IMG/VR virus record: IMGVR_UViG_3300020183_000077
Location: 1 to 62,070 of that record
Direction: 5' to 3' (one strand)
Length of the DNA: 62,070 nt
Source of the DNA: a virus
Positions 19,259 through 60,418 of this stretch are shown here, one piece after another. The translations under genes were made by a program, and so were the position numbers. The notes beneath the pieces are model-generated. The model had not been told where the DNA came from. It saw nothing but the letters and a program-made list of their open reading frames with translations, and searched no databases. Numbering within the stretch: position 1 is the first letter of the stretch; the number at the start of each line of letters is the position of its first letter.

Positions 19259-20200
19259 ATGCCAGCACTATCATCTATCTCAACTGTCGGAGATAAACTT
19301 ATAGTAGGAGCAATCGACACATCTTTTTTGACTGCTTCTAGTAGAGTTCTCCCAGGTACAGCAGTTTTAAATGGTCCAGTTTTTATTGGAGCAACTCCAC
19401 AAATTGGAATTGCTCGTGCTGCTTGCATGATTGGTCCACCATTGGGTAGTCTTGCTGCACCAGCATCTTTAGAAGTCACGGGGATAACAAATATTATTGG
19501 TTCATTGAATGTATTTGCAGTGAGTCTATTTATGGGAGTCACTACAAAAAATGGAATTACCATTAAGAATGCATTGAGTTTAAAAAATGCGGTAAATTTA
19601 AATAATTCAATTAGTCTTGGTAATGCACCAAAAATTAATAATGCACCATTAATTGTTCATTCATTTGGCATTTTTGATGGAGCTGTTTCTGGTAGAGATT
19701 TTATTCCATCAAACGGCCACGGACTACTTGAAACTTATGCTATAGCAACAAAAGCACTTTCTTTAGCAGGAAAGGGGTTTGATATTCCACACCCAACAAA
19801 AAAAGATCATAGATTAAGATATATCTGTTTAGAAGGACCAGAGGTTGGAGCATATTTTAGAGGAAAATTAGAAAATACTAATGTAATAGAATTGCCAGAT
19901 TATTGGAGAAACTTAGTATACCCAGAAACAATTAGTGTCAATTTAACTCCGATTGGACAATATCAAGAATTGTTTGTAGAATCAATTGAATGGGGAACCA
20001 GAATTAAAATTAAAAACAATTCTGGAACATCAATTAAATGTTACTATACTGTATTTGCAGAAAGAGTTACGAAAGATAAATTACAACCTGAATACGAAGG
20101 ATTGACACCAGCAGACTATCCAGGTGATAATAGTGAATATGCTTTAGCGGGTTGGGATTATGCAGTACACAAAGGAGAAAATAAAACACCAAGTCTATGA
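19259..20200 (+). CDS. virion protein with N-terminal tip-like and C-terminal fibre domain
   Basis: 313 aa. N-terminal 70 residues are Gly/Pro/Ala-rich strands (RVLPGTAVLNGPVFIGATP, ARAACMIGPPLG), possibly capping the spike. The C-terminal 130 residues hold a conserved phage structural module: HPTKKDHRLRYICLEGPEVG, ELPDYWRNLVYPETISVNLT, YYTVFAERVTKD. That module is found at the ends of fibre proteins in several cyanophages; its function is unknown. The gene for the oxygenase starts within its last 41 bases. Confidence 0.7.
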   Translation: MPALSSISTVGDKLIVGAIDTSFLTASSRVLPGTAVLNGPVFIGATPQIGIARAACMIGPPLGSLAAPASLEVTGITNIIGSLNVFAVSLFMGVTTKNGITIKNALSLKNAVNLNNSISLGNAPKINNAPLIVHSFGIFDGAVSGRDFIPSNGHGLLETYAIATKALSLAGKGFDIPHPTKKDHRLRYICLEGPEVGAYFRGKLENTNVIELPDYWRNLVYPETISVNLTPIGQYQELFVESIEWGTRIKIKNNSGTSIKCYYTVFAERVTKDKLQPEYEGLTPADYPGDNSEYALAGWDYAVHKGENKTPSL

Positions 20201-20879
20201 AATATTCCCAACTGTAATTTATCGTGGTGAAGTATCTTGCCACAAAGAATTTAAAGAGAAATATCTTACAGAACTGTGTAAATATTGGCATTATTCCGAA
20301 GAACTTCCAAGAGAAGAGTTAGAATCACCAGAAAATTCTGGAAGATATTTTCTCCACCATAATGAAAAATACAAAGATTTTTTTAAATGTTTATCGGATA
20401 ATGTTAGAGAATATTTAAATGTTCTTAATGTTAATGATTCTTTGCTTGATGTTCATGTAACAAAATCTTGGGTCAATATTCATAAGGAAGATCTCCCGAA
20501 TATAAAAGTTCATACTCATAATTGTAGTGACATATCATTTTGCTATTACCTAAACTGCAATCAGACATCAGATAAACTTTGTTTTCATCAAACTAAAAAC
20601 AATAATGAAGTATCTGAGTTTATGTTTCAAACGACAAGAAGTGGAAAATATAATTTGATTGAAAAATTCAACAAATATAATTGTAATAGTTTTAATGTGA
20701 CTCCGATAGAAGGAACCATTGTTCTTTTCCCAAGTTCATTAATGCATTCGACTATCCAACTTATGGAAAGAGAAGGTCAAAGAATTTCAATCTGTGGTGA
20801 TGTTACTCTAACTGTAAAGGAAGACTATGTAAAGTGTGAGTTCAGTCGATTGAATCCTTCATTGTGGAGGTCTTTCTAG
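20160..20879 (+). CDS. 2OG-Fe(II) oxygenase family protein (1 of 5)
   Basis: 239 aa. The opening VYEIFPTVIYRGEV and the core VHTHNCSDISFCYYL, LFPSSLMHST and GQRISICGDVTL fit the putative 2OG-Fe(II) oxygenases of cyanophages; candidate iron ligands are the His of HTHN and the distal His of MHST, with Arg of QRIS for 2-oxoglutarate. ATG 20160 lies inside the preceding gene and no better start is seen. Being linked to tail genes it may hydroxylate a virion or host protein; this is inference. Confidence 0.7.
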   Translation: MQYTKEKIKHQVYEIFPTVIYRGEVSCHKEFKEKYLTELCKYWHYSEELPREELESPENSGRYFLHHNEKYKDFFKCLSDNVREYLNVLNVNDSLLDVHVTKSWVNIHKEDLPNIKVHTHNCSDISFCYYLNCNQTSDKLCFHQTKNNNEVSEFMFQTTRSGKYNLIEKFNKYNCNSFNVTPIEGTIVLFPSSLMHSTIQLMEREGQRISICGDVTLTVKEDYVKCEFSRLNPSLWRSF

Positions 20880-42607: not shown

Positions 42608-43744
42608 ATGCCCACTAAATCTAACATTATGACCGACCAAGCAATCTCCATTCTGAAGGAAAAGTTTGGCACCGAGTTTGGTGTCGATGCTGTCAAAGAA
42701 GTGGCAGATGAACTGAATACTTCTTATGCGACTCTCTCCAAGTATCTGAATCAATACAAGGTGGGTCGTGGTAAATGGAATCTGGAGCAAACCGTGCAAG
42801 ACCTAGAAGAAACTTACAACTCTGCTGCTGCAGAAGGTTCCGATACGGTTCCTGGTGTGGCAACTATGAATTCTGTCGTTCAAAATCTTATTCCCAATAA
42901 AGATGCTACCTTCGTCAGCTTTGGTAACTTTTCGGATATTAAGAAAGTTATTCAGTCTGGTCTATTCTATCCTGCTTTCATCACTGGTCTTTCTGGTAAC
43001 GGAAAAACTTTCGGTGTGGAACAGTCTTGTGCCCAACTTGGTCGGGAACTGATTCGTGTCAACATTACTGTTGAAACTGATGAGGATGACTTGATTGGTG
43101 GTTTCCGTCTTGTAAATGGGGAAACAGTATGGCATAACGGTCCTGTTGTAGAAGCAATGGAACGAGGTGCTATCCTCCTGCTGGATGAGATTGACCTGGC
43201 ATCTAACAAGATTATGTGTCTGCAATCTGTCCTTGAGGGTAAGGGTGTATTCCTCAAGAAAATCGGTAAGCACGTTGTGCCTAAAGCAGGTTTCAATGTG
43301 ATTGCAACTGCGAACACCAAGGGTAAGGGTTCTGATGATGGTCGTTTCATTGGCACCAATGTTCTCAACGAGGCATTCCTGGAACGATTCCCTATCACCT
43401 TTGAGCAGGAGTATCCTACAATCAGTGTTGAGACTAAAATCTTGACTAAAGTTGCAGAATCTCTTAATATTCCTATGATTGGTGAGCATATTGATTTCAT
43501 CAAGCACCTTTGCACTTGGTCTGAGATTATTCGTAAGACCTTCAACGATGGTGGTATTGATGAAGTCATCAGCACTCGTCGTCTGGTTCATATCATTAAG
43601 GCATATTCTATCTTCGGTAAGAAGGACAAAGCAATCAAGGTTTGTCTGAATCGTTTTGATGATGAAACCAAAACAACCTTTGTTGAGTTGTATGACAAAA
43701 TCGATGCTGAATTTAAGCAACCCGACACAGAGGAGGTGGGGTAA
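42608..43744 (+). CDS. cobS: CobS-like AAA+ ATPase
   Basis: 378 aa. Walker A GLSGNGKTFG and Walker B ILLLDEIDLAS, with ATANTKGKG and a RLVHIIKAYSIF lid helix, as in the MoxR/CobS AAA family. CobS is a small subunit of aerobic cobaltochelatase in bacteria; in cyanophages it is widespread but its substrate is uncertain. Here a CobT-like protein is also encoded. The N-terminal 60 residues are a helical domain (VKEVADELNTSYATLSKYLN). A start at 42629 (ATGACCGAC) is equally possible. Confidence 0.85.
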   Translation: MPTKSNIMTDQAISILKEKFGTEFGVDAVKEVADELNTSYATLSKYLNQYKVGRGKWNLEQTVQDLEETYNSAAAEGSDTVPGVATMNSVVQNLIPNKDATFVSFGNFSDIKKVIQSGLFYPAFITGLSGNGKTFGVEQSCAQLGRELIRVNITVETDEDDLIGGFRLVNGETVWHNGPVVEAMERGAILLLDEIDLASNKIMCLQSVLEGKGVFLKKIGKHVVPKAGFNVIATANTKGKGSDDGRFIGTNVLNEAFLERFPITFEQEYPTISVETKILTKVAESLNIPMIGEHIDFIKHLCTWSEIIRKTFNDGGIDEVISTRRLVHIIKAYSIFGKKDKAIKVCLNRFDDETKTTFVELYDKIDAEFKQPDTEEVG

Positions 43745-47890: not shown

Positions 47891-48157
47891 ATGACTGAAA
47901 AAAAACCTGCTGCAAAGAAGACTACTTCTAAGAAAGTAGCAACCCCAAAGAAAAAACAACCTCAACTAAAAATTACGGAGTCTGATAAACAAACATTTCC
48001 TTATAGTCAATTTCCTGTTAAAATCATTCATAAAGATGGTAAGGATTTATGTGAAACAAAAACCTGCTATTTTCAGAGTGAGCATTATGCACAAAAATAT
48101 ATTGTAAGATGCAACTTTAAAAAATCAGACTATCAAATTTTTATAAAGAAATCATGA
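47891..48157 (+). CDS. Lys/Ala-rich hypothetical protein (88 aa)
   Basis: Basic low-complexity N terminus (KKPAAKKTTSKKVATPKKKQ), like histone H1-type tails, then a folded domain with YSQFPVKIIHKDGKDLC and CNFKKSDYQIFIKKS. Possible nucleic-acid binding. ATG 47891 chosen; an upstream ATG 47864 overlaps the RlpA-like gene. Confidence 0.6.
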   Translation: MTEKKPAAKKTTSKKVATPKKKQPQLKITESDKQTFPYSQFPVKIIHKDGKDLCETKTCYFQSEHYAQKYIVRCNFKKSDYQIFIKKS

Positions 48158-48831
48158 TTGACGATCAACATAAATTTGAATATGAGTTTAATTCTCACTG
48201 GTTTAATTCACCTGGTTATTTGACATGCACTGTTCCAGAGTGCGTCAAAGAGGAAATTCAAAATTTAATAAAAGAGATTGAAAATGGTGATGTTGAAGTT
48301 ACTGATTATAGAGGTAAACTTGCAGGACATTTAGGTAAAGAAACTTCTCTCCCAATTCAACCAAGGTTAAAATATCTGGTTGAAACAATGTGCTATGAAT
48401 ATGATAAAGTTTTTTTAAATGGAAAAACTGCAGTACATCATATGTACACTGAAAAAGAGTTTAATAGTGGTTGGAAATATGAACTAAAAACTTTGTGGAT
48501 TAACTATGCAAAAAAACATGATTTTAATCCTACTCATAATCACTCTGGACTTTACTCATTTGTTATTTGGGTTCAAATACCATATGATTTAAATGAAGAG
48601 TTGTCCGTTTATCCTGCTAATGGAAATCAAACATCATTATTTTCATTCAGATATATAGATTATCTTGGAGAAATCGTCTCTCATAATTTGAATATAAGCA
48701 AGTCATGGGAATGGGAAATGGCACTATTTCCTGCAAAATTACATCATGGAGTAAATCCTTTTTATACAAGTGATGGAACTAGGATATCAATTTCTGGAAA
48801 CATTTATTCGACATTAACTAATGAAAATTAA
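48154..48831 (+). CDS. 2OG-Fe(II) oxygenase family protein (3 of 5)
   Basis: 225 aa. TLWINYAKKHDFNPTHNHSG, SFVIWVQIPYDLNEEL, then FPAKLHHGVNPF and GTRISISGNIYST: His pair in THNHSG, distal His in HHGV, Arg in TRIS. Paralogous in pattern to the enzymes at 37851 and 20160. ATG overlaps the previous stop. Substrate unknown. Confidence 0.75.
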   Translation: MIDDQHKFEYEFNSHWFNSPGYLTCTVPECVKEEIQNLIKEIENGDVEVTDYRGKLAGHLGKETSLPIQPRLKYLVETMCYEYDKVFLNGKTAVHHMYTEKEFNSGWKYELKTLWINYAKKHDFNPTHNHSGLYSFVIWVQIPYDLNEELSVYPANGNQTSLFSFRYIDYLGEIVSHNLNISKSWEWEMALFPAKLHHGVNPFYTSDGTRISISGNIYSTLTNEN

Positions 48832-51183: not shown

Positions 51184-51513
51184 ATGAAAAAATGGATTAA
51201 AAGTCTTTTTGATTATAAATTTACATCTCATGATGAAGAAACAACAAAATACTTTATTGATAGAATTACTGGGAGTGAATATAACATTGCAGATTTGATA
51301 ATTTTACTATCAAATCAGATTGAAGAACTTGATGAAAAATACAAGAGTCTTCTTGTAGATATTAAAAGATTGGAAGAAGAAAACGTCGAACTGACAAATT
51401 CTTTATATGAGATTGAAAACAGATTAGAATCTAAAATTGACAAGATTCATCCTATTGTTTACAATTTGAGTGGAGATAAAAATCTAAGTAATTTTACTCT
51501 TGGAGATGCATGA
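51184..51513 (+). CDS. coiled-coil hypothetical protein (109 aa)
   Basis: Basic N terminus, then a long heptad-rich helix (IEELDEKYKSLLVDIKRLEE, ENVELTNSLYEIENRLESKI). Overlaps talC by ATGA. Function unknown. Confidence 0.65.
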   Translation: MKKWIKSLFDYKFTSHDEETTKYFIDRITGSEYNIADLIILLSNQIEELDEKYKSLLVDIKRLEEENVELTNSLYEIENRLESKIDKIHPIVYNLSGDKNLSNFTLGDA

Positions 51514-55934: not shown

Positions 55935-56795
55935 ATGCTTTCTGAAGGTAGAAAAAGAGACACAGCGGCAAATGCGATATTAGGACTTGCATTTGCTGCT
56001 AATGCCGCACAATCCCCAGAAGACTTTGTAAGATCTGGTCATATTGAATCTCCAGGTGTCGTTCAGATGCAGAGAACCTTTGGAAATCCAAGAAAGAAAC
56101 CAAAAGATTTGGATAAAGAACCAGTAACAAGAAGAGGAATTAAATTAAAAGAAGGAAAGACTTTTAAACAGTTCTTAGAAGAAGCATATTTGATTGAAGC
56201 AAGAAGATTCGTTACAAGAGATGAGGCACAATCAAAGTTTGATAAACTTTCTCCAGAAGAGAGAGAAAAAAGAGAGCTTAGAAATTCTGGAGCAAATCAC
56301 GGTGGGTGGGGAACTAAATTAAAAGATTCACTTAAAAAACAAAGGAAAAGAAGATCTCAAAGATTGAAACCACTAACACAAAATGAATTGGAAACTCACG
56401 CGAAAAGAACTTTAAGAAAAAATCCAAATGAACTAGCTGCTATTGCAGCAGATCGTGAAGAAGATGCAAGAGAGAAACAAAAAGCAGCAGCAAGAAGATT
56501 AACGAAAAAAACTGGAACCAAACACGTTGAAGATCATATTCAACCACTTCAACAAGATAAAAGAAAACCAGAAAATAGAGAACGATTTGAAAAAATAACT
56601 CCCAGTGATGCTTCATCAAATATACAAGTTACATCAGAACCAAAAAATTTAAGAAAGGGATCTAAACCACCTAGAATAGGGCAACGTGGTCACGGTACAA
56701 CAAGATCTGGTGCAATTAAACAAAGACTTGATAAAGCACAAAAGTTTTCAGATAAACTGGACAACCTTGTAAAACAAATAAAATCTGAAAGATAA
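55935..56795 (+). CDS. CTS-bearing HNH-type nuclease-like virion protein (286 aa)
   Basis: Residues 75-90 (KTFKQFLEEAYLIEAR) match the T4 capsid-targeting sequence type MKTYQEFIAEA but lie inside the protein, after a 74-residue N-terminal region. The C-terminal half is very basic. Residues about 195-245 look like an HNH core: KHVEDHIQPL, SNIQVTSEPKNLRKG, giving Asp-His, Asn and a second Asn in the usual spacing. A nuclease packaged in the head and injected with DNA is plausible; the link is inference. First gene of the CTS cluster; a late promoter is directly upstream. Confidence 0.6.
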   Translation: MLSEGRKRDTAANAILGLAFAANAAQSPEDFVRSGHIESPGVVQMQRTFGNPRKKPKDLDKEPVTRRGIKLKEGKTFKQFLEEAYLIEARRFVTRDEAQSKFDKLSPEEREKRELRNSGANHGGWGTKLKDSLKKQRKRRSQRLKPLTQNELETHAKRTLRKNPNELAAIAADREEDAREKQKAAARRLTKKTGTKHVEDHIQPLQQDKRKPENRERFEKITPSDASSNIQVTSEPKNLRKGSKPPRIGQRGHGTTRSGAIKQRLDKAQKFSDKLDNLVKQIKSER

Positions 56796-56798
56796 ATA
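56791..56798 (+). promoter_or_regulatory. putative late promoter
   Basis: GATAAATA followed by AATAAAAAA, the same longer sequence as before 58804; 21 bases before ATG 56820. Confidence 0.55.
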
Positions 56799-56819
56799 AA
56801 TAAAAAAGTCATAAAAAAG

Positions 56820-57284
56820 ATGAAGACCTTTAGAGAGTTTCTAGAAGAAGCATATCTCGTTGAGATGCGTAAAGAGGATGAAGTTAAAGGAGAAACTAAA
56901 ACTCCTCTTTATGTAAGTAAAACTTCTGGAAGAGTTGTGAAGAACCCTGAGACTGGTCGTTCAGAAGTTAAGAAATCAACAAGAACATCACTATCACCAA
57001 GAGCAGCAACTGGTAGAATGAAGCAGGGTATGAAAGACCCAACCAATCCTTATTCTGGTGGTATTGATATGCCTGGTGCTACTAGACACGCACACGGTGG
57101 TGGTGGAAGTGGAGCAAAAGCACCTGGAAGAAAGAGAGGTGTTGGTAAGATAGAACAGCAGAAAATTGATAAAGAAGTAAGAGATAGAGGTGAAAGACCA
57201 TTTAGTGCAGGTGCATCACCAGCAGAAAAAGTTGAATTGAGAAGAGCACAAAGAAGACGTTCGACTGGTAGTGGATATCGATGA
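56820..57284 (+). CDS. CTS-tagged basic internal-head protein (154 aa)
   Basis: N terminus MKTFREFLEEAYLVE is a capsid-targeting sequence; a prohead protease site of the L-x-E type would release the mature part. The rest is basic and Gly/Ser/Arg-rich (AHGGGGSGAKAPGRKRGVGK; RRAQRRRSTGSGYR) and could bind DNA. No enzyme fold is seen. Coupled to the next gene by ATGA. Confidence 0.7.
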   Translation: MKTFREFLEEAYLVEMRKEDEVKGETKTPLYVSKTSGRVVKNPETGRSEVKKSTRTSLSPRAATGRMKQGMKDPTNPYSGGIDMPGATRHAHGGGGSGAKAPGRKRGVGKIEQQKIDKEVRDRGERPFSAGASPAEKVELRRAQRRRSTGSGYR

Positions 57285-57661
57285 AAACCTTTAGAGAGTT
57301 TCTAGAAGAAGCAAAGGCACCAAAACCTGATGCTCTAAAAACAATTCAAAGAAAAACAAAAGGAAGAACACCAGGAATGAAGTATGTTGTTCATACTACA
57401 AGTTCTGGTGATATTCGTGTAGATAACATTGAAGTTCCAGAGAATCAAAGAGGCAAGGGTATTGCAAAAAGAACATTTAAAGGACTTCATAACTATGCAG
57501 ATAAGATTGGCAAAAATGTTTCTTTAACTCCAGTTGCAAAACCAGGATATAAAGAAAAATTAGACAAGATGTATAGAAACCTAGGTTATCGGGACCGCAC
57601 ACCTTCAGATAACATTGCTGGTGCAGATACAATGATTCGCACACCCAAGGAGAAAAAATGA
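57281..57661 (+). CDS. CTS-tagged GNAT-family acetyltransferase (126 aa)
   Basis: N terminus MKTFREFLEEAKAPK is a CTS. Residues about 35-110 are a GNAT core: IRVDNIEVPENQRGKGIAKR (the Q/R-x-x-G-x-A acetyl-CoA loop), TFKGLHNYADKIG and KLDKMYRNLGYRDR. It would acetylate an amine using acetyl-CoA, potentially a host protein after injection. Short for GNAT but with the key loop. ATGA overlaps on both sides. Confidence 0.72.
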   Translation: MKTFREFLEEAKAPKPDALKTIQRKTKGRTPGMKYVVHTTSSGDIRVDNIEVPENQRGKGIAKRTFKGLHNYADKIGKNVSLTPVAKPGYKEKLDKMYRNLGYRDRTPSDNIAGADTMIRTPKEKK

Positions 57662-57933
57662 AGACATTTAAACAGTTTATTGCAGAAACAGATTTATCTG
57701 CTCTTGGTGCTGATATTGCAGCAAAAGCAAAAAGGGAAAAACCTGCTGTAAACAAACCAGATTTTGGTAGTAGTCAGAGTGAACCAAAGGCACCAACTAA
57801 TGCTGCTCCCGTTGTCGCATCTGCTGTAAATCGAGCAACTGGTGGGTATGCTGGTGCTGTTGCAAATACTGCAAAAAATGTAGTTAATACTGCAACAAAG
57901 TCAGTTGTTCGTGGAGCATTTAGAAGAGTATGA
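57658..57933 (+). CDS. CTS-tagged Ala-rich internal-head protein (91 aa)
   Basis: MKTFKQFIAETDLSALG is a CTS. The remainder is Ala/Val/Pro-rich and low in complexity (AAPVVASAVNRATGGYAGAV), ending in a basic FRRV. Likely packaged or injected; function unknown. Coupled by ATGA overlaps to both neighbours. Confidence 0.65.
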   Translation: MKTFKQFIAETDLSALGADIAAKAKREKPAVNKPDFGSSQSEPKAPTNAAPVVASAVNRATGGYAGAVANTAKNVVNTATKSVVRGAFRRV

Positions 57934-58778
57934 AAACGTATCAAGAGTTCATAACTGAAGCAAAGAAGTGTTGGCCTGGATATAAGAAAAAGGGAACACA
58001 AAAACTCTTTGGGAAGACTTATAATCGTTGTGTGAAAGAAGATATTGAAGAACTTGAAGAGAGTTCAATGGGTGAGAGAAGTGGTAGAAGAACACGAGGT
58101 AAACTAACTCTTGCCCGTGGTCGTGGTGCTGATATGGACCGTGAAGAAAGAACTACTGCTGCGATTGCAAAGAAAGCAGGTCTCAAAGGAACTGGTAAGT
58201 ATTCCACCAAAGATTTGAGAACCAAAGCAAAAGATTATACGACTTATGATAGTGATGATACTGATGATGATTATGGTAGCACCGAGCAGGACCATTACAT
58301 CCGCACTCACTCTTCTGCAAGAAAAGCAGCAAAGGGTGAGCATCTAATCAAGAAATACAAACCAGCAGGAAGAACTGCAACTGGAATGACTAAACTCAAG
58401 ACTGCACCTTCAAGTGAAAGTGTAAGAAGAGTGAAGGACTTGAAAAAGAATATGACTAAAGCAGGTGCTAATAAGAGAGGTCCAGTTCATACTGTTGATA
58501 TTATGCATCGTGATAGTGATGTTGGAAAAGGTGATAAGGACCAACAAATGGAGAGAGGTAGAAACTTCATTCAAGCACTAAAAGATACTCCAAAGCATCT
58601 TAAAAGAGCAGGTGCAAAGAAAGGTGAGGCAGTAGTTGGAAAACCAACTGCTGTTATGTCTGGTGAAGACCAGAAGACTGGAGTAGCAAAGAGAGCAAAA
58701 CTTTATAAGAAAGTGTTTGGTAAGAGAAGTAGTAAAAAGTCTGAAAAGACTGGAATTATGACAGGTAAAGTGGATTGA
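57930..58778 (+). CDS. CTS-tagged basic internal-head protein with WPGY element (282 aa)
   Basis: MKTYQEFITEA is nearly identical to the T4 CTS. Next comes KKCWPGYKKKGTQKLFGKTY, an element that recurs in cyanophage virion proteins, then NRCVKEDIEEL, a possible second cleavage point. The rest is very basic (Lys, Arg) with an acidic YDSDDTDDDYGSTEQ insert. Probably a DNA-associated internal protein. Last member of the coupled series. Confidence 0.7.
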   Translation: MKTYQEFITEAKKCWPGYKKKGTQKLFGKTYNRCVKEDIEELEESSMGERSGRRTRGKLTLARGRGADMDREERTTAAIAKKAGLKGTGKYSTKDLRTKAKDYTTYDSDDTDDDYGSTEQDHYIRTHSSARKAAKGEHLIKKYKPAGRTATGMTKLKTAPSSESVRRVKDLKKNMTKAGANKRGPVHTVDIMHRDSDVGKGDKDQQMERGRNFIQALKDTPKHLKRAGAKKGEAVVGKPTAVMSGEDQKTGVAKRAKLYKKVFGKRSSKKSEKTGIMTGKVD

Positions 58779-60178: not shown

Positions 60179-60418
60179 ATGAAAACTTTTAAAGAGTTTA
60201 TTTCTGAACATTGTGGTTGTGTAGACAATGCAGTTGGTGAACTTGAAGATGGACTCAAAAAGTTAAACGATACTTCTTATGATTCGATTGATAAATTGAT
60301 GCGTAAGATTATGAAAAAACATCAAATGAGTGCAAAAGAACTACATAATGCTTTTGTTGATACTCACGGTAAAATACCTGATGAGTGGATAAAACAAATA
60401 AATAAAAGAAAAAAGTAG
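60179..60418 (+). CDS. CTS-tagged small protein (79 aa)
   Basis: MKTFKEFISEHCGCVDNAVG has the CTS pattern, with a C-x-C after the putative cleavage region. The remainder is a helical domain (IDKLMRKIMKKHQMSAKELH) with a basic tail. Predicted internal-head protein. Followed by the 52-aa YAD-module protein. Confidence 0.65.
   Translation: MKTFKEFISEHCGCVDNAVGELEDGLKKLNDTSYDSIDKLMRKIMKKHQMSAKELHNAFVDTHGKIPDEWIKQINKRKK
60397..60404 (+). promoter_or_regulatory. putative late promoter
   Basis: AATAAATA inside the end of the preceding gene, 18 bases before ATG 60423. Confidence 0.4.

Follow-up and report, generated by a model that had tools for sequence, protein, structure and literature searches.

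A T4-like cyanophage encodes a small protein in which a capsid targeting sequence (CTS) of the T4 type precedes an acetyltransferase fold of the GNAT family. As judged from sequence and structural model, the product is a small acetyltransferase-like GNAT with predicted enzyme activity, and we consider it fairly probable that it is an internal head protein that is trimmed by gp21, packaged, injected and directed early in infection to the acetylation of host or defence proteins. The gene lies in a window of 62,070 nt (the whole stretch of DNA analysed), a 62-kb fragment of a T4-like cyanophage that encodes CobS, a transaldolase, a gp5-type baseplate hub and a DNA end protector. CobS is located at 42608 and the transaldolase at 51510, and the window also holds two 2OG-Fe(II) oxygenases (phrog_81), at 20160–20879 and 48154–48831. 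The translation of the gene reads MKTFREFLEE↓AKAPKP...IRVDNIEVPENQRGKGIAKRTFKGLHNYADKIGKNVSLTPV...KLDKMYRNLGYRDR..., in which the arrow marks the predicted cut; the features discussed below are collected in Table 1.

Table 1. Coordinates of the CTS-GNAT gene, its neighbours in the window and CTS-tagged neighbours in related sequences
Feature	Position	Strand	Remark
CTS-GNAT gene	57281..57661	+	Open frame, 126 aa
CTS, residues 1–10 (MKTFREFLEE)	57281..57310	+	Predicted gp21 cut after Glu10
GNAT domain core, residues about 33–122	57377..57646	+	AF2 model, fold and profile searches
Acetyl-CoA (pyrophosphate) loop QRGKGIA, residues 56–62	57446..57466	+	R/Q-x-x-G-x-G/A pattern
Tyr98, probable general acid	57572..57574	+	Invariant in 23 sequences
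Two overlapping NATAAATA late-promoter-like motifs	56791..56802	+	Upstream of CTS run
CTS gene MKTFREFLEEA, basic body	56820..57284	+	Stop overlaps GNAT start (ATGA)
CTS gene MKTFKQFIAET	57658..57933	+	Start overlaps GNAT stop (ATGA)
CTS gene MKTYQEFITEA, basic body	57930..58778	+	Leader 10/11 as T4 IPII/IPIII
CTS gene MKTFKEFISEH	60179..60418	+	Body matches phrog_10346
CTS-ART-fold proteins beside GNAT	L034:5676-6119, L038:4588-5001, L040:4609-5001, L041:173-568, L079:2510-2956		
Further CTS-ART-fold proteins	L035:3128, L036:1495, L068:2432, L079:1959		
P-loop kinase-, zincin- and HNH-like CTS neighbours	L048:3709-4332; L035:2752-3123; L068:1646-2017; L007:3031, L009:5394, L020:5441, L021:1573		

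The sequence-only reading had placed the body of the protein in the GNAT family, and this identity was borne out by family profiles, fold searches and the conservation of the acetyl-CoA loop together with Tyr98. The loop does not, as had been stated, follow directly on the leader: it lies about 45 residues further downstream, and in the AF2 model one helix and two strands stand between the two. Among 23 family sequences, Gly60 of the RGKGIA stretch (residues 57–62) is invariant, and Tyr98, which we take to be the probable general acid of the predicted GNAT reaction, sits at the usual Y-x-x-x-G-F/Y position. Taken alone, the window sequence matched Pfam families PF14542 (E 0.0014) and PF13673 (E 0.0059) below the curated cut-off; family members reached up to E 5e-9 with PF13508, 20 of the 23 matched PF14542 at E ≤ 0.01, and GNATs made up 24 of the 25 PDB sequences recovered with the family profile. 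The structure prediction and comparison with GNATs that the earlier reading had put forward as a check gave the same answer: the leading Foldseek and VIA matches to the AF2 model (pLDDT 78, pTM 0.68) were GNATs, headed in VIA by an AcrVA5 chain (Z 10.5, 92 residues, rmsd 3.4, 13% identity) and followed by spermidine acetyltransferase (Z 9.2), GCN5 (Z 8.9) and RimI (Z 8.6). No family other than GNATs gave a credible match in the profile and structure comparisons, and profile and fold thus rule out a chance GNAT motif. RimI or Naa50 as the specific function was also ruled out, since many GNATs tie at VIA Z scores of 7.7–8.9.

The ends of the homologues match those of the window protein, and the bodies range from 97% to 26% identity. 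Comparison with six close relatives gave dN/dS values (NG86) of 0.08–0.11 in five and 0.42 in the exception (L014), indicating that the gene is under purifying selection. Without its leader, the mature body is basic (pI 10.2, 13 kDa). Individual homologues depart from this picture. That of phage B23 (L002:6001-6390) has Lys in place of loop Gly60, and activity is therefore not required of every family member; another (L053:5001) is broken after 45 residues; and three carry C-terminal extensions (L050:5001-5954, L068:2977-3612 and L072:2923-3558).

The leader MKTFREFLEEA had been interpreted as a CTS, and it conforms to the T4 type at each of the positions defined by mutation in T4 (4, 7, 8 and 10). 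In T4 the first ten residues are enough for packaging, residues 4 and 7 weigh most in targeting and residues 8 and 10 in processing, gp21 cleaves after L/I-x-E, and Asp at position 10 allows targeting and blocks processing (PMC9026906). T4 IPII and IPIII begin with MKTYQEFIAEA, which has the same pattern. Of the 424 candidate Met positions in the window, five match the CTS pattern, where composition alone would predict 0.0013; this rules out a chance leader, and all five are starts of plus-strand ORFs (56820, 57281, 57658, 57930 and 60179).

Our initial profile search contained the leader itself as part of the pattern; leader conservation was counted solely from a search with the leader removed. 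In that search, the CTS was present in all 30 unfused homologues, with M1, K2, T3, F7 and E10 invariant, F or Y at position 4, L or I (28 of 30) or M (2 of 30) at position 8, A, S or G at position 11, and positions 5 and 9 free. Compared with distant homologues, the leader is 45–82% identical and the remaining sequence 26–41%. The remaining two matches of the leader-free search have the GNAT fused C-terminally to a different CTS protein. Two separate arrangements of this kind were seen: in L010/L011 the GNAT lacks its own start and is placed behind another CTS protein (MKSFQQFLEEA...), and in L048/L049 it again follows a CTS protein, with a different partner. Some 45 related virus sequences retain the tag. 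In one GNAT homologue from the leader-including search (L046:5001), residue 10 of the CTS is Asp. A 219-aa protein encoded between the terminase genes of S-CRM01 (g33, L024:36132) also starts with a CTS-like leader, MRTFESFLAEADE. The rule MKT[FY]..F[LIM].E could serve to list injected proteins of T4-like cyanophages.

The GNAT gene belongs to a series of CTS genes joined by ATGA start/stop overlaps at 57281, 57658 and 57930, and the genes are therefore probably translated as one run. The leader DNA of the preceding gene (56820–56852) is identical to that of the GNAT gene (57281–57313) at 32 of 33 bases; the bodies of these adjacent genes are unrelated, and the bases flanking the two leaders agree at chance level (7/30 before and 18/60 behind). 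Near-identity of the leaders between flanks of chance similarity suggests that leader DNA was copied between genes, and its degree suggests that the copying between these two was recent. Upstream, the ORF at 55935–56795 opens with a conserved region of some 75 aa, which is followed, at 56154, by a CTS-like stretch, GKTFKQFLEEAYLIEA, with Gly in place of the initial Met; in its relatives this N-terminal region is retained and the sequence after the CTS differs. The late-promoter motif NATAAATA (PMC2984593) occurs 18 times on the plus strand of the window (about 14 expected) and three times on the minus strand; with a plus-strand count this near to expectation, the case for a late promoter driving the CTS run is weak. 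Several of these motifs lie directly upstream of genes.

In relatives, the CTS genes adjoining the GNAT gene all encode a CTS-type leader, followed by bodies that can be recognized. For one family with an HGT/HYT motif, the AF2 model (pLDDT 81.5) had an ADP-ribosyltransferase (ART) fold as its leading match, with Tpt1/KptA first (VIA Z 10.7, 82 residues, rmsd 3.1) and PARP and other ART domains lower; weak Pfam matches to ART-PolyVal (0.011), PTS_2-RNA (0.0085) and Tox-ART-HYD1 (0.074) were also obtained. The modelled fold makes these proteins a possible analogue of T4 Alt in cyanophages. Other neighbours include a P-loop kinase-like protein (AAA_33, E 1.6e-10), zincin-like proteins with weak Pfam matches (best E 0.0077) and an AHELVH motif, and HNH-like proteins recognized from an HHITP... 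motif and alignment, with a Pfam HNH_2 match (E 0.02) in one member; PDB support for the HNH assignment was not found. One 610-aa CTS protein (L012:6372-8201) appears to be a tandem duplication of the body encoded at 57930. Judging from these leaders and bodies, the cyanophage is likely to inject not one enzyme but a set of them. We lean slightly towards a broader proposal, in which a single 10-residue tag, copied at the DNA level, addresses a large number of single-domain enzymes with no relation to one another (GNAT, ART fold, P-loop kinase, zincin and HNH-like nuclease) that are swapped in a cassette run and together would form a CTS-coded injection arsenal.

The processing machinery can be followed in S-CRM01, a cultured cyanophage whose GNAT homologue, g185, is already annotated 'acetyltransferase'. 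S-CRM01 encodes gp21, and its gp23 contains LFLAE↓A, corresponding to FLTE↓A of T4 gp23, a cut site like that of the GNAT leader. A second CTS gene was not found within 4 kb of the S-CRM01 GNAT gene. Four of the ten records searched (nine GNAT-bearing contigs and the window record) contain gp21 (PF03420); it was not found in the window, itself a fragment.

Outside cyanophages, the best viral fold matches to the GNAT model were GNAT domains of proteins of more than 1,000 residues, and the nearest relatives are GNAT domains of giant phage proteins, one of them polyvalent. That protein, NVP1185O_18 of Vibrio phage 1.185.O (2,514 aa), was a sequence match and combines LPD22, a GNAT and a ParB-like part; its GNAT aligned with the cyanophage family in hhalign at 99.6% (E 1.6e-24), C-terminal tail included. 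Polyvalent proteins have been predicted to be injected, and their GNATs to be protein-modifying (Iyer et al. 2017, PMC5512222). The same GNAT subfamily thus occurs in CTS proteins and in a polyvalent protein, and each of these settings points to capsid delivery. Polyvalent proteins combine at least two dissimilar domains in a single chain; the GNAT stands alone here and in nearly all members, and we therefore do not class the protein as polyvalent. The distribution is patchy and accessory: of the cultured cyanophages in the phage collection, two species carry the GNAT. No cellular relatives were found in a leader-free profile scan of genome contigs with a single short pattern.

These observations allow us to propose a route from capsid to host. 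By extension from T4, the CTS would dock the GNAT protein into the prohead core, a gp21-type protease would cut after Glu10, and the basic 13-kDa GNAT would be left among the packaged DNA and ejected together with it. Following the chemistry of the GNAT family, it would then draw on the acetyl-CoA of the host to acetylate amino groups on host proteins, ahead of phage gene expression, the likeliest targets being defence or gene-expression proteins. Which of these the enzyme would modify is a matter of analogy. It may, tentatively, be an injected anti-defence acetyltransferase in the manner of AcrVA5 or T4 IPI*, which by acetylation would inactivate a nuclease or another defence protein of the host and would not reprogram transcription or translation: AcrVA5, the best VIA match and a mini-GNAT of about the same size, acetylates Cas12a (PMC9114340), IPI*, the best understood CTS cargo of T4, is anti-restriction (PMC3012670), and the patchy accessory distribution of the GNAT fits such a role. 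However, AcrVA5 shares only 13% identity, the match may reflect small size alone, RimI and GCN5 follow at Z 8.6–8.9, and both Rac and Alt are RNA polymerase precedents. An anti-defence target seems at least as plausible as the RNA polymerase or ribosome suggested as examples by the sequence-only reading. AcrVA5, an anti-CRISPR, and IPI*, an anti-restriction protein, favour defence, Rac and Alt favour RNA polymerase, and by analogy we would put defence slightly ahead.

Two further explanations dispense with injection of an active enzyme. Packaging might serve the head itself, the basic protein binding DNA or modifying head proteins during assembly, with a GNAT that acts on phage proteins or is inactive. 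T4 IPIII does influence head assembly (PMC9026906), the body is strongly basic and the B23 homologue lacks Gly60, but the cofactor loop and Tyr98 are conserved in nearly all members, a closed head would limit the supply of acetyl-CoA, and CTS neighbours that resemble different enzymes fit effectors better than a scaffold; we regard this role as unlikely. It is more improbable still that the leader is no functional CTS, and is instead a short amphipathic N terminus that recombination has passed around between small genes of cyanophages, with the GNAT acting after synthesis as does Rac, which is made after infection (PMC7552054). The 32/33 identity between the leaders at 56820 and 57281 shows that leader copying is possible, yet the conserved positions are precisely those that the T4 work defined, with others free, L/I-x-E↓A agrees with the gp23 cut site, and the fusions retain the CTS in front. 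Injection of a CTS-addressed acetyltransferase remains our preferred reading.

The closest counterparts are the T4 internal proteins. With IPII, IPIII and IPI the cyanophage protein shares a ten-residue N-terminal MKT[FY]..F..E leader, the L/I-x-E cut rule and a basic body, T4 internal proteins being basic (PMC9026906), and as in T4 the genes are clustered accessory genes with a common leader and unrelated bodies. It differs from them in that its body is a GNAT and its packaging is predicted. We know of no T4 internal protein that is an acetyltransferase. To our knowledge, few phage proteins are injected as enzymes, and T4 Alt is the prototype. Like Alt, the GNAT protein would be a head-packaged, protein-modifying enzyme active on entry. 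The two differ in that Alt belongs to the ARTs and has a propeptide of 7 residues in place of an IP-type CTS (PMC9026906). The analogy gains weight because the adjacent CTS gene of relatives encodes an ART fold. AcrVA5 resembles the protein as a small GNAT and its best VIA match, whereas identity is 13%, the AcrVA5 target is Cas12a and no CTS has been reported for it. Rac of phiKMV-like phages, likened here by description, is also a phage GNAT and is tied to modification of host RNA polymerase, but its description has it produced within the cell after infection (PMC7552054).

Precedents exist for each piece (T4 CTS cargo, an injected ART in Alt and predicted injected GNATs), and a CTS-bearing acetyltransferase was not found in the open-licence papers searched. 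What appears to be new is a stand-alone GNAT that carries a CTS, is fixed in a broad range of cyanophages and has its place in a series of enzyme-like proteins tagged in the same way. Retention of the CTS on a GNAT in cyanophages this divergent would mean an acetyltransferase delivered by the capsid; the head cargo of T4-like cyanophages is largely uncharted, and the action of these phages on their hosts in the first minutes becomes directly open to testing. Compared with the GNATs of polyvalent proteins, the protein belongs to the same subfamily and is here a small, stand-alone, CTS-addressed protein and not a domain of a giant one; if the proposed arsenal is real, it would be the equivalent of polyvalent proteins, delivered by the capsid and divided into separately tagged enzymes.
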